IMG/VR virus record: IMGVR_UViG_3300031631_000036
Location: 1-20,488 of that record
Source of the DNA: a virus
Reading direction: 5' to 3' (one strand)
DNA: 20,488 bases
The notes under the pieces were generated by a model, which was not told the origin of the DNA, did not search any database, and was given only the letters and a program-made list of their open reading frames with translations. A program made the position numbers and the translations under genes. Shown one piece after another: positions 1 through 18,004 of the stretch. How positions within the stretch are numbered: the stretch's first letter is position 1; each line of letters begins with the position of its first letter.

Positions 1-3000
1 CGGCTGTCTTCGGGCTGTCTGGCATTTGTCCGACAGCTATGTCAAACAACTTCTTGGGTAGGGCCAGGAGGCCCTTGACGATGCCGCTGACGATGCCGCC
101 AAGGAGATCGAGTCCCAGGTCGCCTATGCCGCTAAACGTATCTCCGATGAAACCGCCGATGCCGAGCTTAGGGACTGTCGTGTTGCCGCCATTGACGACG
201 CCGCCTGCGGCATACAGGTCGTTGCCGAGCGACGCATAAAGGTCGCGGGCACGAGAGCGGTAGCGTGGGTCGGTCGGGATCACGTATTCGTCATGAATAG
301 ATGAACCTTCACCCACGATTGCCCGCGCCCCGTCAGTAATAAACCCTGACCCAACCTCAGATGCGCCCATGATGGCGCCCTTGGCGTGCCTCGGCGGCCC
401 CGATTGACCAGAGATTTGGGGGATTTCGGGGATCGCCGGGATTCCAACTACCCCGGTTACAGTGTTGAAACCACCGATCAAGAAGTTCATTATTCTAATG
501 GCGCCACGGAGTTGGTTTCGCAGGATTCCCTCTAGGCCCGACATGGCGGTTTTTATGCCATCCTTGATTCCGGTGAAAGCACCAACGATCTTTTCCTTGG
601 CGGTCTCGAATGCGCCAACGAACGTGTCCCTGACCCAATCCTTAGCGGTCTTCATGTAACCCCTGAGCGTCATCCAATATCCAAAGAATTTGCTGCCGAG
701 ATCACTGAGACTCTCACTGAACTTAGTTTTGACAGTACCCCATATAGCACCGAAGATGTCGACGATCCAATTCTTTGCTGTAACCATGACAGATTTGAGA
801 AGTGTCCACGCCGTGTCGAATGCGATCTTGATTAGGCCCCACCCTACGGATAGCAAATTTTTGAGAACCGTCCACGCAGTCTTCCATAATAGGGTTATGG
901 CGGCAATGCCTATCTTGAATGCTCCCTTGAATAGGGCCCATCCGATGTCGACAAGACCTTTTATGACGGACCAAGCGCCGGACAGGATGCTCTTCATGCC
1001 ATCCCACATCTTGCCCCAGTCGCCGGAGATGATGCCGGTGGCAACCTGGATGACGCCCTTGATGATGCGTAATGCTCCAGCAATGATGTCGCGGATTGAC
1101 TCGAATACATCCTTGACGACATCCCACAGAACCCAGAATACTGTTATGATAAAGTCGATCCCGCCCTGGATGATGTCCCAAACGCCACCAAGAAGGCCCA
1201 TGGCTACGCCTATGGCATCCCCCCAGCCCTCCCAAACGGTTAAAGCGACTCGCTTCAAGGCGTCGAAGGCTACTAGGAGTAATCCTCCTATGATGTGGAG
1301 AAGCGGTTGGATCAACCTCCACAGGTTAGAGAACGCTTCGCCGATCTTTTGTATTGCCGACCAAGCAACGTTACCCCAGAACACAAAGGTGGTAACCAGA
1401 ATGTCAAGGATGGGCTTGATTATATTCCAAAGGGCCACGAAGAATGCACCGCCTTCGGTGATGATCCCCCACACCTCCTTGAATATCGGGACCAAGAATT
1501 CCCAGACAGCTTTACCTATTTTGGAGGCCCACTTGGCAATCCATTTGGCGACCCATACGAGTGGCTTAACTATGTAGCTCATCACGAAGCCCGCTATAGC
1601 GGAGCCGATCAGCTTAGCCATGTTTACAGTCCAATTCCAGACCGCTACAGCAGCGGCCGCCACCGCTTTTGCCATGTCGACGAAGAACCCTGCTACCGCT
1701 TTCGACCATTTAACAATGGTGTCAATAATGAGGGGACCCCACTTGATAGCAATAACTGCGAGGGCCGCTATCAAGAATACAAATATACCGCCAAGCAGGT
1801 AGGCGAGGATTGGGCCCCATATCCAGAATGATCTACCTATGGCATCGATGACGGGTTTAACTTTATTGTCAAGGAAGTCGCCGAACGATGCCATCTTGTC
1901 CTTGAGGTCATCGAACACGCCAGCGATGTTCTCCAGAGATTCGACTGGGAAGCTCGTTGAGAGTGAGTCGGTCAGCTTTTTGAGTTCGTCCTGTAGTTTG
2001 ATTGTGTCGAAACCTTTTTCGGCTTCTGCCAACCATTCTTCGGTCAAGGCGTTAATTTCGTTTACGCCGCCGTTTGTGGGAAGCAGTCCGCCCGTGCCGC
2101 CGGGGACTTCGAAGTCTCCGCTCAATTCGTCGGCACCGCCGCCACCACTGCCAGGGGTACTGGTGACGGTGGCCCAGAAGTCTATGGCGTTGTTAATCTC
2201 GTCAATCTCATCCTTGATACCACTGTAAGTATCTTTGATCTGGGACAGTTTGTCCAGTTCCATATCGTACTTGGTAAGAATGAGGTCCCTTTCGGCGCTG
2301 AGCTGAGCGACAATTGCCTGCTGAGCTTCGACCGCAAGGTTCGCTGAGAGTTGTTGTTGCTCTAAATCGGTGACCAAAGCTACCTGTGCAGAAATGTCTG
2401 CGAACAGTTGGTCGAATGACAACTCTTCGGTCGTATCTGCGACAGCGTCGAGGGCCTCTTTCATCGGGTCAAATACCGTCTCGAACTCAAGGCGAAGTAT
2501 TTGGCCTTGAGTTTCAAGCAGGGCAAGCTGTTGTTCCATGCCGTTGATGACACCGCCACCGCCGCCGCCGCCCGATCCGAGCGAACTCTTGGCAGATTCT
2601 AATGCCGTTATTTGGGCGTCGTAGAATCCGAGAATGTCTGAACCGGCCCCGGCGTTGCGGAGGTTTGTGCGCTCGCCGGTGAGTGAATCGATTTCTGATT
2701 GCAGGCCGCTGATGCGACCCGCTATGTCGTCGATTGTCGAACCAGTATCACCAAGCCGGAGAAGTTCAAGACGTAACAACTTCTGGGCCTGGGTGTTGGC
2801 AAAGATTTCAGCGTTAGCGTCCTTCATTCCCGTGAGGGGGGTGTCCAGCAACGCCCGTAGGTCACTCTTGGCATCCCTCAAGGCATTGCTGACGGCATCG
2901 GCGACGCCTTCGAGTCGTTCCAGTTCGGCTGCGAATGGGGCAAGTTTGCGTTCGGCGTCCTCTAAAGCCTGACCCCACAGGTCAACAATAGACTGCTGGT

Positions 3001-5101
3001 TTGACATCTGAACGCCCACGAGGGCGAGGGCGTTCTGCAACTTCTGTAGCTCGGCTGTTGCCATGTCGAATGAAGGCAGGAGGCTCGGGTCAAACTTTTC
3101 TACGGCGATACGGGATTCGCCGATCTTGTCCATACGTAGGGCGGCCCGAGCCCGTTCGGTTGCCGATAGGAAGGTGCGGAAATCTTGTGCAGCGCGTCGG
3201 AAGACGTTTCCTACTTTGCCGAGGCTTGCGTACTCTGCTGCGATGATGGCAACGCCGTCCTTGACCTGGCTGACCAGGGATGGGGAGTGGGTGGCAAATG
3301 GGTTCATCCATTGGAGCCATTCATAAACGGCCATGGCAGCCTTGGACACAACCTCCACGACTGCGTTCATCGCTATAGCGAAAGCCTCCGGCACGGCGTA
3401 GATTGCCGTGATTATCCCCTTCACTGTTGCGATGGTGGCCGATACCATGGCTGTATAAACCGTTTTTGTAACATCCCACATGGCGGCCAATGCACCGGGG
3501 ATTTCGTTCCGATACATATAGGCCAACATGGCGAGGGCGGTGAGAACTATGAGGACAACAGCCACCCAACCCAACGTTGCCAATCTAGCCATCAGTGTGG
3601 CGACCGTTTGCCTACGCGTCCATAGAATCAGCAATTTGGTCTTCAGGATCAACCAGCCCATAGACTTGGCTGTGAAAAGTAATGCGTTGCCGAAAAAGAA
3701 TAACGGCTTAAGAATGATACCTATAAGAATGAATAGGGTACCGAGTATTGCGACAAGAGGCCCGAGTATGCCCAAGAAGAGCGCTACAGCAAGGACCACT
3801 TCCTGAACCCTCGGACTAAGTTCTGTAAACCAGCGAACCCCATTGACCACTTCTCGGAAGACGGCGATGATTGCTGGCAGTAGTGGCATGATTGCTTCAG
3901 CCATGAGATTCTGTAACTGTGTGCTAACAATCTTCATGGCCTGCGGCTGGGAGGACAGAACGATGCCGAGTTCTCGGTTCATCCTCGCGACGTTGGCTTC
4001 CGCATCGGCGGTAGCGTTTAGGGCGTTCGCATATTTGCTGTTCTCGGAAATTAGGTCATCGAGCAGTCCCACCAGACGGCCACCCTGACGCAACTGGGCG
4101 ATGTCTCGGGCCGCCGCGAGACGTTGTACCTGATCCAACCCCTCGTAGCTGCCAGCGAGCTGATGAAGCCTCTCAGTGAATGTGGCGTTCTGCCACCCTG
4201 CTTCCTCTGTGGCAATGCCTAAACGCTTGAATGCTTCCGTTGCCTGAACGGTCGGGGCCATCATTCGGAAAATGATTGAACGCAGGGCAGTACCGACCTC
4301 TTGGGCGGTACCGAAAGCGGGCACGAGGGCTGCCGTCATGGCAGCGAGTTCGCGGATCGAAACACCTGATGTTCTGGCGGTAGCGCCAGCAATACTAATA
4401 ACCTTAACCAAGCCCGTTAAAGAGGCGGCCGATTCGTTCTCGACGACGTTCAGGACCGCAATGGCCCCAGTCATCTCTTCCACCGAAAAGCTGTACGCCT
4501 GCATCGTGGTAATCAACGCTTTAACGGTAGCGTCCGCTTCCATGCTGCCGAGGATCATTGTTTCAAGTGTCAGCCGGGTGGCTTCCGCCAAGCCTGCGCC
4601 TGATGCGCCAGCCTGCGCCCAAACGGCACCAATCCTAGTGACCTCGGACTGTTGGACACCAAACACGTCAGACAGGGCGCGCATCGCTTCACGCAAAGCG
4701 TCAACTTCTTCGGTTACCTGTGCTATAGGGGTCTTTACTGTTCCGTAAACCTTACGGAGCCGCGTGAGAGCAGTCTCGTTCGCCAGGGCAAACTTCGTTG
4801 CCGCCCCAGCAGCAAGAAGGAGAGGCAGCGTTATGCGAAATTCAAGCTGTCTACCCGTCCACTGTAAATTCTTGCCAAACTTAACCAGATTAGCAGCAGC
4901 AGCCTTGCCGAATGTTCTACTGAGAGCAGCCCCGACCTTACTAAGACCAGTTCGCATTCTGCCTAGACCGGCAGTCATGTTCGACAGGTTGAATTTGCGT
5001 GCGCTGGCCCCAGCAGATTTGATGGCAGCGTCAACCTTCGCCACCTCGACGGCGGCACGTTTAGCACGGGCTTCAATGACTATTCGTAATCTTGCATTCA
5101 T
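1..5101 (-). CDS. Phage tail tape measure protein, TP901-like (partial, C-terminus beyond left edge)
   Basis: This minus-strand frame starts at ATG 5101 and stays open to position 1, giving at least 1700 residues; the stop lies outside the window. Tape measure proteins set tail length and help DNA ejection. The N-terminal 430 or so residues have the helical, Ala/Gly-rich look of the TP901 tape measure core. Strongly hydrophobic segments lie near residues 434-480, 507-528 and 1090-1120. The middle (about residues 680-1030) is Glu/Gln/Leu-rich and coiled-coil-like, broken by poly-Gly linkers (one at plus 2550-2580). The C-terminal third has repeated Trp/Ile/Lys helices, then a Gly-rich tail. 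The start follows a GGGGTG ribosome site about 8 bases upstream and lies 15 bases after the chaperone fusion stop. The position directly after the frameshifted chaperone genes is the classic one. The long plus-strand frames across it are antisense shadows. Confidence 0.95.
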   Translation of the reverse strand, partial: MNARLRIVIEARAKRAAVEVAKVDAAIKSAGASARKFNLSNMTAGLGRMRTGLSKVGAALSRTFGKAAAANLVKFGKNLQWTGRQLEFRITLPLLLAAGAATKFALANETALTRLRKVYGTVKTPIAQVTEEVDALREAMRALSDVFGVQQSEVTRIGAVWAQAGASGAGLAEATRLTLETMILGSMEADATVKALITTMQAYSFSVEEMTGAIAVLNVVENESAASLTGLVKVISIAGATARTSGVSIRELAAMTAALVPAFGTAQEVGTALRSIIFRMMAPTVQATEAFKRLGIATEEAGWQNATFTERLHQLAGSYEGLDQVQRLAAARDIAQLRQGGRLVGLLDDLISENSKYANALNATADAEANVARMNRELGIVLSSQPQAMKIVSTQLQNLMAEAIMPLLPAIIAVFREVVNGVRWFTELSPRVQEVVLAVALFLGILGPLVAILGTLFILIGIILKPLFFFGNALLFTAKSMGWLILKTKLLILWTRRQTVATLMARLATLGWVAVVLIVLTALAMLAYMYRNEIPGALAAMWDVTKTVYTAMVSATIATVKGIITAIYAVPEAFAIAMNAVVEVVSKAAMAVYEWLQWMNPFATHSPSLVSQVKDGVAIIAAEYASLGKVGNVFRRAAQDFRTFLSATERARAALRMDKIGESRIAVEKFDPSLLPSFDMATAELQKLQNALALVGVQMSNQQSIVDLWGQALEDAERKLAPFAAELERLEGVADAVSNALRDAKSDLRALLDTPLTGMKDANAEIFANTQAQKLLRLELLRLGDTGSTIDDIAGRISGLQSEIDSLTGERTNLRNAGAGSDILGFYDAQITALESAKSSLGSGGGGGGGVINGMEQQLALLETQGQILRLEFETVFDPMKEALDAVADTTEELSFDQLFADISAQVALVTDLEQQQLSANLAVEAQQAIVAQLSAERDLILTKYDMELDKLSQIKDTYSGIKDEIDEINNAIDFWATVTSTPGSGGGGADELSGDFEVPGGTGGLLPTNGGVNEINALTEEWLAEAEKGFDTIKLQDELKKLTDSLSTSFPVESLENIAGVFDDLKDKMASFGDFLDNKVKPVIDAIGRSFWIWGPILAYLLGGIFVFLIAALAVIAIKWGPLIIDTIVKWSKAVAGFFVDMAKAVAAAAVAVWNWTVNMAKLIGSAIAGFVMSYIVKPLVWVAKWIAKWASKIGKAVWEFLVPIFKEVWGIITEGGAFFVALWNIIKPILDILVTTFVFWGNVAWSAIQKIGEAFSNLWRLIQPLLHIIGGLLLVAFDALKRVALTVWEGWGDAIGVAMGLLGGVWDIIQGGIDFIITVFWVLWDVVKDVFESIRDIIAGALRIIKGVIQVATGIISGDWGKMWDGMKSILSGAWSVIKGLVDIGWALFKGAFKIGIAAITLLWKTAWTVLKNLLSVGWGLIKIAFDTAWTLLKSVMVTAKNWIVDIFGAIWGTVKTKFSESLSDLGSKFFGYWMTLRGYMKTAKDWVRDTFVGAFETAKEKIVGAFTGIKDGIKTAMSGLEGILRNQLRGAIRIMNFLIGGFNTVTGVVGIPAIPEIPQISGQSGPPRHAKGAIMGASEVGSGFITDGARAIVGEGSSIHDEYVIPTDPRYRSRARDLYASLGNDLYAAGGVVNGGNTTVPKLGIGGFIGDTFSGIGDLGLDLLGGIVSGIVKGLLALPKKLFDIAVGQMPDSPKTA

Positions 5102-5116
5102 TGAAACATCACCCCG

Positions 5117-5895
5117 TTACCTTCTTGATGCAGTCTTAGCTTTATTCGCATCCTTCTGCTGTTGTTCGCTGGTCTTCTCGTTTAGCGTTCTTGATATTTC
5201 TGCAAACTGATCGACCAGATCGGGGTGCTGATCATAAATTCCACCTGCTACCGGGAGAGCCGTCCACTCGGTGTTGGCCGCCCATGCGTAGAGTCTAATG
5301 GACTCACACGGGTGATCGATCGAGCGATCGGATTTCCAAGCACTTAACTGGTCACAGAATCGCCTTTTCCCGACTCACGCGCCTCGACCTCGTCACGGAG
5401 GGACATAAGGTCCTCGATCTCCTTGTCGATGTCTTCAACGGAAAGTTCGTCGAGAAGCCAGGGGTTAGCTTTTCTGATAGCAGATTCGAGGGAGTCAACG
5501 ATCTTGGGGTTGGCCGAATCGAGGAAGCGATCGAGCGCACTGCCCGAGAATCGCACCTCTTGGCCGTCACTCCTCAAGTTCCAGCCAGTCACGGCTGCCT
5601 TGATGAGGAACATACGATCGTCACCAGGCTTGGTGTCGATGTGTGCGTCGCCGGTCGTTTTCTTTACGGTGACGCCGTTATTGGCCTTATTCATGTACTG
5701 TCGACGCTTGCCCTCATTCATGGTCGAATGAGTGATGGTCGAAACGCCATCAGGGAAAGTGAAGACGTTGTCTTCGCCAAAGCCGAAGTAGTCGGTCTGG
5801 ATGTGTTCCTCAACAGTTTGACCTGCCGCCACCATATTGGCTTCAATACTAGCGTTGCGGCGATCTTCTGCGGTGAGTGTGCTTTCGTCTGCCAT
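5117..5895 (-). CDS. Tail assembly chaperone G-T fusion made by -1 frameshift
   Basis: Ribosomes translating the 183-residue chaperone meet GGGAAAA (minus strand, 5371 to 5365), phased as G GGA AAA, the X XXY YYZ form used for -1 slippage. The -1 frame continues from 5365 for 82 codons and stops at TAA 5119-5117, giving a fusion of about 259 residues. Without slippage the protein ends 6 codons later, at 5344. The T extension contains YAWAANTEWTALP and a hydrophilic Lys/Gln-rich tail, and has no start codon with a ribosome site of its own. In siphophages the G and G-T products bind the tape measure protein and recruit tail tube subunits; the tape measure gene follows at once here. The frame analysis is read directly from the sequence. 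The frameshift itself is inferred, but the fit is very close. Confidence 0.9.
5344..5895 (-). CDS. Tail assembly chaperone, G-like (unshifted product)
   Basis: This encodes 183 residues. The ATG at 5895 follows a GGAGG site 9 bases upstream. The sequence has family features of siphophage G-type chaperones: a beta-rich N-terminal half with FTFPDG, an EGKRRQY segment, the stretch MFLIKAAVTGWNL, and a C-terminal helical part with NPWLLDELSVEDI followed by acidic residues. It lies between the tail tube and tape measure genes, the expected position. It binds the tape measure protein during tail assembly and is usually absent from the mature virion. The reading frame ends just after the GGGAAAA slip site, as is usual for such genes. 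Confidence 0.9.
   Translation of the reverse strand: MADESTLTAEDRRNASIEANMVAAGQTVEEHIQTDYFGFGEDNVFTFPDGVSTITHSTMNEGKRRQYMNKANNGVTVKKTTGDAHIDTKPGDDRMFLIKAAVTGWNLRSDGQEVRFSGSALDRFLDSANPKIVDSLESAIRKANPWLLDELSVEDIDKEIEDLMSLRDEVEARESGKGDSVTS
5365..5371 (-). promoter_or_regulatory. -1 programmed frameshift slippery site GGGAAAA
   Basis: The heptamer is phased exactly for a -1 slip in the chaperone frame (codons GGA AAA become GGG AAA), and the -1 frame is open for the next 82 codons. About 35-50 bases downstream lies a palindromic stretch, CGATCG-AG-CGATCG (plus 5317-5330), which could act as a stimulatory structure. Confidence 0.88.
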
Positions 5896-5995: not shown

Positions 5996-7030
5996 CTATC
6001 GAACAGTCAGAAGACCGTTCGTGATGGCGACGTTCATGATGTCAACGCCTGCGGCTGGGCGCACTGCCTGAATCTCGATGTCGTTTTCGATGACATCATC
6101 ACCCGAAGCTGAGTTCTCGAATGGCTTCAGGATTGCCTGCGGGATGTTGATTACCATGGTGTATGGCACGGCCGTGTTGTAGATGTTCTCGAAGCTCGTG
6201 ATCGTAATGGCCACTGCCTCTTTGGTAGCGGCCCCGGCGATAGGTCCGGTAGCTACTTCGGTGCCGTAAACGGCTTGACGCCACAGGGTTGAATCTGTTG
6301 GTCGGAGGCTCATTCCCATTGTAATTTCACGGCGCTTTTCTTCGATGCCGCTAAGGGTGATACTTCCGAGAACGAATACGTCGTCTTCGAGGTTGTTGCT
6401 GATGTCGATGCTGAACGAGCGAAGGGAGTATGAGTTGCCGTCCACTGTAATGACTACCTGCGAGCCCACCATGAGTGGGGTGATGTCCCAGGATGGGGCC
6501 ACCGTGCGGGTGATGCCAGCAAGCTGAGTTGTTGCTACCAGGCCAACACTACCCGTGAGGTAGCCGTCGGCGTCAGATTCGAGGTGGAAGGTGTTGACCT
6601 TGACGTTCGTGTAACCGAACGACTCGTAGGACGAAGCCAAACCCTCTTCAACGGAGAGCCAAGGTAGGGCGGCACCGTCAACGGGAGTGATCGTGTGAGT
6701 CACATTAGCATCATCGCGTTCTACGGTTCCAGCGTTCGTGACGCTAGCAACCTCACCCAAAGCCGCTGCGAGCAGAGTCGTGATGGACTCCATGCGGGGG
6801 TAGAACTCGAATTCACCTGAATAGGAAGCTGACCCAAGAACGGCATCCGGTACGTCACGGTTGCCACCAATCTCGGGATCGGGGATAAGAAGTTCGCGGT
6901 TGGCATTCATTGACCCACTACGAAGGCGCATGAAGATACCATCATTAGGGATGGCTGCACCGGGGTCTTTGTAAACGTCGACCGTTGGTTGGGTTATGAA
7001 ACCGACCTGTCCGTCTTGACTCTGTGGCAT
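5996..7030 (-). CDS. Major tail (tail tube) protein
   Basis: This encodes 344 residues, starting at ATG 7030 after an AGGAGT site about 9 bases upstream. It is beta-rich throughout, with alternating hydrophobic residues and many Thr, Val and Ile, and has no membrane or signal segment. The N-terminus (MPQSQDGQVGFITQPTVDVY) and the segment with SYSGEFEFYPR and SYESFGYTNVKVNTFHLE resemble the tail tube subunits of actinobacterial siphophages. Its place just before the frameshifted chaperones and after the tail terminator supports this. The protein forms the hexameric rings of the non-contractile tube. The assignment rests on length, composition and position rather than a single diagnostic motif. 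Confidence 0.85.
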   Translation of the reverse strand: MPQSQDGQVGFITQPTVDVYKDPGAAIPNDGIFMRLRSGSMNANRELLIPDPEIGGNRDVPDAVLGSASYSGEFEFYPRMESITTLLAAALGEVASVTNAGTVERDDANVTHTITPVDGAALPWLSVEEGLASSYESFGYTNVKVNTFHLESDADGYLTGSVGLVATTQLAGITRTVAPSWDITPLMVGSQVVITVDGNSYSLRSFSIDISNNLEDDVFVLGSITLSGIEEKRREITMGMSLRPTDSTLWRQAVYGTEVATGPIAGAATKEAVAITITSFENIYNTAVPYTMVINIPQAILKPFENSASGDDVIENDIEIQAVRPAAGVDIMNVAITNGLLTVR

Positions 7031-9987: not shown

Positions 9988-10773
9988 TTACAGCTCTGTG
10001 CTGGCGGTTCGGAACGTGATGTCGCAGTTCTTAGAACTACGCAGCGCGTCTGCGGTTGTATCGGTCAGTGCAATGACGGTGCCTGCGGCGTTCAACTCAA
10101 AGCACTTAGCCTGTGTTGCCGTCCCGTGGTAGATGTATGCAACTTCTACGTCACGTTCGAGCAACTGGGTTGGGAGGAAGGTGTCACAGATACCAACGTA
10201 GTTGGCGGCAGTTTGACGGCCATCCGTAGCCCCGACCACACCAGGTGTGGTTGTCGTCGGAACGTAGGTAGCACCCACAAGGAGCGAGCTATCTACGGTT
10301 ACGAGAGGCACATCTGCGCCACCAAAGGAGCCGATGAATGTCAACGTCATTGGAGTACCCGGAAGGGTGCCGCCGCCGACAGTGATGTCATCATTGAAGG
10401 TGAGAGCGTCGATTGCAGCCTGAACGGTAGCGACTGAGTCGTTCCAGTTAAGGAGGCCGGTCTCTTCGCCGTAAGCCGTGATGGTGTACGTTCCGGCAGT
10501 GGTCGTGCCACTATCGGTGATGGTCTGGACTTCGTCAGCGCCACTACCGGCAGACTCGACAGGGCCGAGCTTTCCGGCGTCGGAACCTACGGTGATTCGG
10601 GCCAAGGCCATACCTGGTTGCAGGACTCGCTGGGCGACTCCGTCGACGGTGACAAGAGGCAGAGTGTCAGCGGAGAATGTTCCGTGATCAAACTGCAAGT
10701 TCTTGGTCGAACCGAGGTAAACGTTCTTGCCGAATGGCGTCCCGTAACCGGGACCTTTGGTGAAACCTGGCAT
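9988..10773 (-). CDS. Head decoration protein, lambda D-like, with an inserted beta-rich domain
   Basis: This encodes 261 residues, about twice the length of lambda gpD (110). The ATG at 10773 lies just after the protease stop, with a GGGATGAAG site overlapping the end of that gene. Residues 1-74 (FDHGTFSADTLPLVTVDG, then LQPGMALARIT) and residues 183-261 (GRQTAANYVGICDTFLPTQL, then DVEVAYIYHGTATQAKCFEL) look like two halves of a decoration protein. Between them, residues 75-182 form a Thr/Gly-rich segment: a strand TYTITAYG, a helix SVATVQAAIDAL, then MTLTFIGSFGGADVPLVTV. That pattern recurs in phage surface proteins as a small all-beta module. The protein probably trimerises on the capsid with the insert displayed outside. 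Confidence 0.8.
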   Translation of the reverse strand: MPGFTKGPGYGTPFGKNVYLGSTKNLQFDHGTFSADTLPLVTVDGVAQRVLQPGMALARITVGSDAGKLGPVESAGSGADEVQTITDSGTTTAGTYTITAYGEETGLLNWNDSVATVQAAIDALTFNDDITVGGGTLPGTPMTLTFIGSFGGADVPLVTVDSSLLVGATYVPTTTTPGVVGATDGRQTAANYVGICDTFLPTQLLERDVEVAYIYHGTATQAKCFELNAAGTVIALTDTTADALRSSKNCDITFRTASTEL

Positions 10774-11920: not shown

Positions 11921-12172
11921 TTACAACCTCAATGAAGTCGGGAGCCTTTGTTGGCGAGAGTTGACCCCTCCGGTCGTTATTCTGACCAAGTGCCATCTCT
12001 TGCATTCGCGGCATCTGAGATGTGTGACGCCTCCGGTTGCGATCATCTCGCCGAAGATTCGTCCCTGTTTGTAGACCTTTACGTGGACGAAGTGACCAAT
12101 CTTCTGATCATACCCACATCTAGCTAACAGGGCCCTGCTTGCACAGGTGCATCGAATCTCCAGATCGTCCAT
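11921..12172 (-). CDS. Small Com-like zinc-ribbon protein
   Basis: This encodes 83 residues. The ATG at 12172 lies 3 bases after the portal stop, with no clear ribosome site, so translation is probably coupled. Cysteines occur at residues 8 and 10 (IRCTC), 19 (ARCG) and as a pair in LRCRECKRWH near 54-57. This spacing, a Cys pair near the start and a CxxC after about 45 residues, recalls Mu Com-type zinc-finger proteins, in which two Cys pairs bind one zinc. Com activates translation of mom in Mu; related small proteins occur next to Mu-like head genes without mom. The role here is unknown. The first Cys pair is CxC rather than CxxC, which is atypical. Confidence 0.6.
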   Translation of the reverse strand: MDDLEIRCTCASRALLARCGYDQKIGHFVHVKVYKQGRIFGEMIATGGVTHLRCRECKRWHLVRITTGGVNSRQQRLPTSLRL

Positions 12173-15663: not shown

Positions 15664-16990
15664 TGGTCACCTCGATCGGTATGGGAGCAATTTCGCCCCT
15701 AAGCATGTGGGCCGCCAGCATGACATCCGTAATATCCTTACGGTGATGCCCAGCGGATTCAAGGGCCGACATCGACGCAGCCACCTGTTGCTGCTGGGTT
15801 AATTCGACTCGCTGCCCGCTGGCATTCAGGACATTAACGTTCACTCCCGCCGTCCTAAGCGTCGGGTCGACCAACTTGGCTAACTTCACACCATTGCTGA
15901 ACAGGCCGGAGAGAATCTTGGTTACCTCGGGGCTGAGTTCGCCGAACTCCTCCTCAACACGCAAACCCATTTCCAGACGTTCCGTGGAGTGGGCCATAAC
16001 CTCGCCGAGCCCCTCAATGATGCTGCCAGCATCTCTGGTCTTGAATAAGGCCGCCAGTTTGGCGCCATCTGAACTTGGCATAGAACACACATCTCCTACT
16101 CGGAAGTACTTACAGTTGTTTATCAGTGAACACGTATCACATGCCACTTTGTCGCCCGGAAGAACCTTCAAGGCCGACGACATCGATGATCCCGTCGTCG
16201 ACTTCACTGGAGAGTTGCCTGCCGCCCCGCGTGAACGGAAGTTGATGTTCTCCAGGTAATACTCGGCCGCCCAAAGGGACGACTTGATGTTGAACAGGCA
16301 TCTCTGGTTCGCTTCCTTTAGGTCCCCTAGAGAGAAGCCAATAACGTTGACCCACTGGGGCGTTTTTGCGGCTTCACTATAGCTCACAACCCGCCCATTA
16401 GGAAGGACAACCGAACCTTTCTGCGCCGATACCCGCGGGTGGAAATCAACCGAAGCGACCTCGGTCCCGAACATTGTGCGGAACGAATTTATGCCATGAA
16501 GGTGGACAATACAGTCGGGGTAGTCGCGTTGCATCTCCCGAAGTGCCCGATAGAAGGCCATACCTAAACCCGTGCGGCTGTCCGGCGGGCGGATAACCAC
16601 AACCCTATGTTCCTGGTGTATGACGGGACGAAGCTCGGGTGAAACGTTCGGATCGTCACGGGCCGCAGGGCTCTCCGCCACGTTTGATTCCATGAGGCTT
16701 TCAAGAATGGAAATGTTACTCGTCGTGTAGTCCCAAGTCGGGTACACGGCCGCGGGAAGGTCTTCGCCTTCGTTGCGATTTATTTCAGCCGTCCCCTGTT
16801 CTCCGATTAGAAGCATCCTGTACTCGCTTGTAATCGGATAGTTCAGCTCAATGAGCTTTCGGGGGTCGATGCGATGTTTCACTAGATAGCCGCGATCCCA
16901 AGCAATGTTCAACACATTGAGTTCGGCACATTGACGTATGTACTCGTTGGGGTTGGCGTACCAGATTTCTGTGGGGGTTCTGGAACTCAT
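15641..16990 (-). CDS. Unassigned Cys-motif protein before terminase; possible small terminase / packaging factor
   Basis: This encodes 449 residues. The ATG at 16990 has only a weak ribosome site. Residues 125-255 form an alpha/beta segment with RVVVIRPPDSRTGLGMAFYR, IVHLHGINSFRTMFG and WVNVIGFSLGDL. Residues 284-302 hold four cysteines spaced C-x2-C-x5-C-x8-C, which could bind zinc or an iron-sulfur cluster. The last 140 residues are helical (TRDAGSIIEGLGEVM, then EEFGELSPEVTKILSGLF). It is the first gene of the virion operon and overlaps the large terminase start, where small terminases usually lie. However, 449 residues is far longer than a typical small terminase and no classic helix-turn-helix is evident. 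I do not recognise the family; the packaging role is inferred from position. Confidence 0.6.
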   Translation of the reverse strand: MSSRTPTEIWYANPNEYIRQCAELNVLNIAWDRGYLVKHRIDPRKLIELNYPITSEYRMLLIGEQGTAEINRNEGEDLPAAVYPTWDYTTSNISILESLMESNVAESPAARDDPNVSPELRPVIHQEHRVVVIRPPDSRTGLGMAFYRALREMQRDYPDCIVHLHGINSFRTMFGTEVASVDFHPRVSAQKGSVVLPNGRVVSYSEAAKTPQWVNVIGFSLGDLKEANQRCLFNIKSSLWAAEYYLENINFRSRGAAGNSPVKSTTGSSMSSALKVLPGDKVACDTCSLINNCKYFRVGDVCSMPSSDGAKLAALFKTRDAGSIIEGLGEVMAHSTERLEMGLRVEEEFGELSPEVTKILSGLFSNGVKLAKLVDPTLRTAGVNVNVLNASGQRVELTQQQQVAASMSALESAGHHRKDITDVMLAAHMLRGEIAPIPIEVTSVQSDPV

Positions 16991-17153
16991 GATGACCAGA
17001 ATAATAGGCCGTTATCAACAACAACCCCACCTGCTGAAAGTCATACTCCCAGAGTATCTTTTAGAAATGCTGCAAAAGATAACGGATGTCAAACCACAGG
17101 GGGCCACTCACGTAGTAACGTCAGTACTCCACCGCCTGATATTCCCGCGGTGA
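16989..17153 (+). CDS. Possible ribbon-helix-helix-like mini-protein (54 residues)
   Basis: ATGs at 16989 and 16992 open a frame of 54 or 53 residues ending at TGA 17151-17153. After a basic N-terminus (TRIIGRYQQQP) comes a strand-like LLKVILP, a helix EYLLEMLQKI, a turn and a second helix ATHVVTSVLHRLI. This is the order of a ribbon-helix-helix DNA-binding domain. The start overlaps that of the leftward gene at 16990, and the stop overlaps a GTG (GTGA) in the primase frame. The ribosome site is weak (GGGGG about 12 bases upstream). If real, it may regulate the divergent operons. It could instead be a chance frame in a regulatory region. Confidence 0.45.
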   Translation: MMTRIIGRYQQQPHLLKVILPEYLLEMLQKITDVKPQGATHVVTSVLHRLIFPR

Positions 17154-17212
17154 CCCGACAGTTATCCAACCTGGTGACGCTACTACCACCAGTAACACCC
17201 CATTGGAGTTCC
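16991..17212. promoter_or_regulatory. Divergent region between virion and replication genes
   Basis: The leftward virion operon and the rightward replication genes diverge here, so promoters for both should lie in or near these 222 bases. A perfect dyad ATACTC-CCA-GAGTAT occupies 17043-17057 and could be an operator or small hairpin. A minus-strand TTGACA occurs at 17092-17087, but no good -10 box lies 16-19 bases beyond it. No convincing sigma-70 promoter could be assigned. The small open frame described separately covers most of this region. Confidence 0.4.
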
Positions 17213-18004
17213 ATGAAAGATCAACAGAACGAGATTATAGACCTCTTGGCTAAGCGTTTTATCGCCAGACCAGACGTCCACGCAGAACAATGGAACAACG
17301 GAGGCTGGAGTCCGAAAGAGGTCCCCTTCGGGCGCAAACTGTTGCAATCCCACCTCGATGGCAAGGCCACGCTCGGTCACTACATGCTCTCAGAAGAAGA
17401 TGAATGTAAACTCTTTGCATTCGACCTCGACCTCGACAAGCCAACCAAAGATCGCAATAGCGGCATGGTCATACCCATCTACTACCGGCTCGACGACGGC
17501 ACCGCCATCCCAATCAACCCACGCGAAGCATGGTACGGAGACAACCAGGAAATAGTCGCCGGACTCACCCTCGAACTACGCTCCCTCGCCGAAATACTCG
17601 CCCTGCGAGTCCGCACAATGTTTGACCTCGACGTAGCAGTAGCATTCAGTGGTAACAAAGGACTCCACGTTTACGCTTTCCTTGGAATGCCCCTCCCCGC
17701 TGAGCTGGCAATCGAAATGAGCAACGCCGTCCTCGGCTCGTTTAATGAAATGTTCTACGCCACCGACGGGAAGAATTTCTACAAACATCGGTCCCCAGCC
17801 TTCGAGCACGTAACCGTCGAGACATTCCCCAAACAAGCCAAGCGCCCCAACGGCGGCTACGGCAACCTCATGAAGCTCCCACTAGGAAAAGACAGTCGGA
17901 CGGGCCATAAAGGCTTCTTCGTTGACCTCGACGCCCCCGACGATGTACTACAATCTACTGACCCCATTCCGACCCTAAAGGGGATGGCGGTTCAGGGTGT
18001 CTAA
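17213..18004 (+). CDS. Small archaeo-eukaryotic primase (AEP, TOTE-type)
   Basis: This encodes 263 residues from ATG 17213, with GGAG four bases upstream. A GTG at 17150 would add 21 residues. Catalytic features are in order: FAFDLDLDK (metal-binding Asp71 and Asp73), FSGNKGLHVY (Ser146 to His152, nucleotide-binding), and VTVETFPKQ followed by GYGNLMKLPLGKDS (about 201-228). The last two resemble the EhFPKQ...GGN..LPLG signature of TOTE-type AEP primases, with the Glu203 region probably supplying the third metal ligand. Such enzymes make primers, and some also extend DNA. There is no zinc domain of its own; one lies in the next, overlapping gene. High confidence for the AEP family, moderate for the exact subgroup. 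Confidence 0.85.
   Translation: MKDQQNEIIDLLAKRFIARPDVHAEQWNNGGWSPKEVPFGRKLLQSHLDGKATLGHYMLSEEDECKLFAFDLDLDKPTKDRNSGMVIPIYYRLDDGTAIPINPREAWYGDNQEIVAGLTLELRSLAEILALRVRTMFDLDVAVAFSGNKGLHVYAFLGMPLPAELAIEMSNAVLGSFNEMFYATDGKNFYKHRSPAFEHVTVETFPKQAKRPNGGYGNLMKLPLGKDSRTGHKGFFVDLDAPDDVLQSTDPIPTLKGMAVQGV

Follow-up and report, generated by a model that had tools for sequence, protein, structure and literature searches.

A predicted -1 frameshift at GGGAAAA joining two tail assembly chaperone frames in an unclassified virus fragment, and the varied slip sites of its relatives

Introduction

Are two overlapping reading frames between the major tail protein and the tape measure gene of an unclassified virus fragment joined into one protein by a programmed shift of the ribosome, and, if so, which parts of the device are kept among its relatives? 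Frameshifting that produces a G-T fusion is established in tailed phages and differs among them in being -1, -2 or +1 (PMC5009743), and GGGGGAA is known from SEA-PHAGES data to recur as a slip site of chaperone genes (PMC10885494). The sequence examined here, referred to throughout as the window, is a 20,488-base IMG/VR virus record.

Genomic Setting

The minus strand of the window carries genes for the small and large subunits of terminase, the portal, a head maturation protease, head decoration, major head and neck proteins, and the tail tube protein (PF18906), together with G, the T frame and the tape measure gene, while a primase and a helicase are encoded on the plus strand. Between the major tail protein and the tape measure lie two overlapping frames, G and T, as the G/G-T class requires (Table 1). 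The host is likely actinobacterial, since the terminase has its nearest counterparts in Rhodococcus and Gordonia phages (about 44–50% identity). A near-identity search of a phage collection with the window gave no match.

Other genes of the fragment have peculiarities of their own. A small cysteine-rich ORF of 83 aa with two Cys pairs (11921–12172, minus strand) lies between the portal and head maturation protease genes, and it matches PHROG 20049 and 6679, of unknown function, with no match in Pfam. Residues 77–153, in the middle of the head decoration protein (9988–10773, minus strand), match the tail-protein profiles phrog_10909 and phrog_2839, a match that points to an inserted domain. Finally, the primase ORF (16931–18004, plus strand) matches the AEP-TOTE archaeo-eukaryotic primase domain of Pfam and adjoins a DUF3987/helicase-like protein that carries a DnaG zinc ribbon.

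Table 1. Positions of the chaperone frames, the slip heptamer and the flanking tail genes in the window.
Feature	Position	Strand	Evidence and remarks
Tape measure protein	2..5101	-	phrog_5448, E 2.7e-199; PF10145; runs off contig end; ORF start 5101
T, -1 frame	5117..5371	-	84 codons from GGG (82 after slip); ends with TAA 5119-5117
Slip heptamer G_GGA_AAA, near G end	5365..5371	-	Frame reading; exact X_XXY_YYZ phase
G, 0-frame tail assembly chaperone, 183 aa	5344..5895	-	ORF; PHROG 3096, E 5.9e-40
Tail tube (major tail) protein, upstream of G	5996..7030	-	PF18906 Phage_tube_2, E 2.3e-23

Two Frames and a Slip Heptamer

G is preceded by a Shine-Dalgarno-like motif, TGGAGG, and its 0 frame ends with ...GAG TCG GGA AAA GGC GAT TCT GTG ACC AGT TAA, in which six sense codons separate the slip from the TAA at 5346–5344. 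Read in the -1 frame, the region around the slip becomes TGA GTC GGG AAA AGG CGA TTC..., where the TGA two codons before the heptamer closes the frame. Downstream, the T frame stays open up to a stop 15 nt before the tape-measure ATG, and a search of it for ATG, GTG and TTG found none. Being closed upstream and without a start codon, the T frame is therefore readable only by a shift. Its openness over 84 codons is beyond chance, having been kept in only 27 of 2000 dinucleotide shuffles, and joining G to T at the heptamer gives a predicted fusion of 259 aa. The first-pass annotation had described much of this from the letters alone, and its account of a GGGAAAA heptamer in exact X XXY YYZ phase, a 0 frame ending six codons past the slip, an 82-codon -1 frame running to a stop just before the tape measure, a T part without its own start and (as arithmetic) a 259-residue fusion was borne out.

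Conservation of G and T

In a profile search, residues 2–179 of G matched PHROG 3096, a tail assembly chaperone family. A Pfam search of G and T returned nothing credible, with no chaperone family, that of lambda gpG included, appearing up to an E of 1, and a PHROG search with T alone gave chance-level matches only. A translated search found 118 matching phage records, from Gordonia, Rhodococcus, Tsukamurella and Nocardia phages, and depositors had annotated a joined second chaperone CDS in eight of the nine relatives that were inspected (Rhodococcus and Gordonia phages). In the ninth, Gordonia phage Camerico, the T region (L026:2061-2276) was deposited as a separate hypothetical protein and no fusion was annotated; its -1 frame is nevertheless open, and G carries a G_GAT_TTC site at its end.

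Alignments of G and of T were also used to search viral contigs, which added further loci, and profile searches were then run on 80 distinct loci. An interrupted T frame in homologues had been named in the first-pass annotation as a finding that would speak against the frameshift, but 79 of the 80 loci proved to conserve T in a shifted frame, which is -1 relative to G in 74 and +1/-2 in five. At the remaining locus, L018 (2375–2903), T starts in the -1 frame whereas its homology appears past the G stop in the 0 frame, and the probable cause is an insertion or deletion within T, or else an assembly error. The T of the window aligns with its relatives from the slip site onward. Conserved motifs of T include F..Q and W.HLPVAGG.YDQ.P, with eight invariant columns across 12 aligned sequences, and LP.AGG.YDQ.P is conserved in the T of relatives.

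These alignments bear directly on whether T could be a separate protein, made by reinitiation or from a non-canonical start. The short overlap after the G stop makes such coupling conceivable, and the Camerico annotation lists the downstream part in just this way; however, besides the missing ATG, GTG and TTG, the first near-cognate start in the frame (ATC) comes only at codon 18 and would remove the conserved F..Q motif, and the homology of T in relatives reaches up to the slip site, leaving a separate T very improbable. Less probable still is a single gene split by sequencing or assembly error. The contig is metagenomic, yet the two-frame layout recurs in 74 independent loci, isolate genomes among them, with the shift at the same place, and the error is refuted by this family pattern. 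A programmed -1 shift, on the other hand, is supported by the gene order, the PHROG 3096 homology, the joined CDS annotations in relatives and the conservation of T in the shifted frame. Judged by these lines of sequence evidence, the locus is almost certainly a tail assembly chaperone pair of the lambda G/G-T type, with a programmed -1 shift at GGGAAAA giving a G-T fusion, as the first-pass annotation had proposed.

Slip Sites among the Relatives

Slip sites were counted over the 74 loci that have T in the -1 frame. Of these, 66 have an in-phase slip heptamer where G ends, and none has one in the G body. The G_GGA_AAN form accounts for 30 loci (GGGAAAA 19, GGGAAAC 8, GGGAAAG 3), with the others divided among G_GGG_GAA (24), A_AAT_TTC (7), A_AAA_AAN (5) and various other sites (8). 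Within the last 15 codons of G, there were 69 in-phase occurrences of the four recurrent heptamer kinds, compared with 0 and 6 for the other two phases, and in the G body of the 74 loci they were found at none of 9620 in-phase positions. Since G_GGG_GAA, A_AAT_TTC and A_AAA_AAN replace G_GGA_AAN in relatives that keep the T frame, the exact heptamer is interchangeable, and relatives keep its presence and phase. The earlier premise that the heptamer itself must be conserved therefore does not hold: other slip sites, and even a changed shift direction, occur with the T frame retained.

The same sites are relevant to a third explanation, in which the frames are joined by transcriptional rather than ribosomal slippage, as the run of A at the junction might suggest. 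Transcriptional slippage generally needs longer homopolymer runs, however; the run in the window consists of only four A residues, the GGGGGAA and AAATTTC sites of relatives are without long homopolymers, and the two-tRNA slip phase is exact. Slippage of the polymerase is thus scarcely credible here.

RNA Structure Downstream of the Slip

It had been suggested in the first-pass annotation that a palindrome at 5317–5330 may be a stimulatory element. This candidate was rejected: the stretch reads CGATCGAGCGATCG and its reverse complement CGATCGCTCGATCG, making it imperfect at the centre, it starts 34 nt after the slip, and it folds no better than shuffles. Folding downstream of the window slip was likewise no better than that of shuffles (z near 0, at 0.15, -1.43, -0.69 and -0.27, and 0.34 in a separate run). 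A stable structure 5–9 nt after the slip was sought in the window and found to be absent, with 3 of the 14 pairs of the relatives' hairpin and 3 of its 9 core pairs present. Because significant downstream structure is lacking in the window, the efficiency of its slip would be set by the heptamer alone, or by an upstream purine-rich stretch.

Several relatives have a long hairpin that starts 5 nt after the heptamer, an example being L128, TTCCGCGAACAAGTA-GAGA-TATTTGTTCGCGGGA, with a z of -5.3. Strong hairpins at this distance from weak slips (G_GGG_GAA, G_GAA_AAA), with compensatory changes, were seen at L128:1-3249, L015, L063, L097, L116, L007, L021, L119, L024 and L058, and are absent from the window and from nearly all G_GGA_AAN loci. 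In a hairpin alignment of 19 rows, 18 of them relatives mostly chosen for forming the hairpin (a selection that inflates the share of paired cells), 16 cells were changed on both sides against a shuffled mean of 6.7, and the covariation score was 0.248, where slid registers reached 0.154 at most.

Hairpins were also counted against slip sites in unselected loci, at fixed spacing and with a criterion of at least 8 of the 9 core pairs. By this measure, the hairpin is present in 8 of 24 G_GGG_GAA loci and 3 of 6 N_G[AC]A_AAA loci versus 1 of 30 G_GGA_AAN loci. The comparison of weak with strong slips (11/30 versus 1/30) gives a Fisher p of 0.0025, where loci are the units counted and the link was noticed in the same data. 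For this association, the tree yields only three independent pairs on supported branches, and a link between weak slips and hairpins that is independent of descent is not established.

Change of Shift Direction

The five loci with T in the +1/-2 frame are L009, L020 (Mbo2), L023 (Trogglehumper), L127 and L130, with '+1/-2' serving as one label, as the sequence cannot tell +1 from -2; the products of the two shifts would differ in length by a single residue. Mbo2 was annotated as -2 by its depositors. In four of the five loci, an in-phase TTT followed by C occurs near the start of T, a pattern that would be compatible with slipping by +1, off TTT and onto TTC. The +1/-2 state requires four changes when placed on the G tree, at least three of them forced by supported branches, and the direction of the shift has changed more than once within one chaperone family.

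A broader reading, which we put forward tentatively and regard as the less probable side of the question, is that the slip mechanism of this family turns over as T is kept. The direction would have changed between -1 and +1/-2, and weak, non-canonical slips (G_GGG_GAA, N_GAA_AAA and N_GCA_AAA) would be compensated by the hairpin 5 nt downstream, which strong G_GGA_AAN members such as the window would not need.

Predicted Mechanism and Closest Known Systems

In the window, most ribosomes would translate G, of 183 aa, to its TAA. In a minority, at the moment when GGA is in the P site and AAA in the A site, the two tRNAs would re-pair one base back, with GGG and AAA, and these ribosomes would continue in the T frame to produce the G-T fusion. 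By analogy with lambda, the fusion would be made at a low ratio to G, with the G part coating the tape measure protein and the T part recruiting the tail tube protein. That the slippage itself takes place, how efficient it would be and what G and G-T do in tail assembly are inferred from the class to which the pair belongs.

The likeness to lambda gpG/gpGT (G_GGA_AAG) lies in the gene order, in a G_GGA_AAN heptamer for the -1 shift placed shortly before G stops, and in a T that has no start of its own and is followed by the tape measure gene. In contrast to lambda, the heptamer of the window ends in A, and its G and T match no Pfam chaperone family; the relation is one of position and mechanism, without detected sequence homology. 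A second comparison is with the chaperones of PHROG 3096 from phages of Gordonia, Rhodococcus and Tsukamurella (Mbo2, Reynauld, Jumbo, GMA3 and others), where G (about 33–38% identity) and T are homologous and the gene order and two-frame layout are identical. These relatives differ in their slip sites, which include AAATTTC in Jumbo and GordDuk1 and GGGGGAA in Reynauld, and the T of Mbo2 and Trogglehumper lies in the -2/+1 frame, unlike the -1 frame of the window. Finally, the GGGGGAA ('fivetwo') chaperone slip sites of SEA-PHAGES (PMC10885494) resemble that of the window in role and position, whereas the window uses the canonical XXXYYYZ form.

Implications

The frameshift proposed for the window is well supported as correct and as belonging to a textbook class of tailed-phage devices. 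The annotated product of the locus should include the 259-aa fusion, which goes unseen by simple ORF callers. Of wider interest are the relatives, where one homologous family combines several slip sites with two shift directions. Such a family provides a natural set of cases for studying the trade-off between the strength of the slip site and RNA structure by which the ratio of G to G-T is held.
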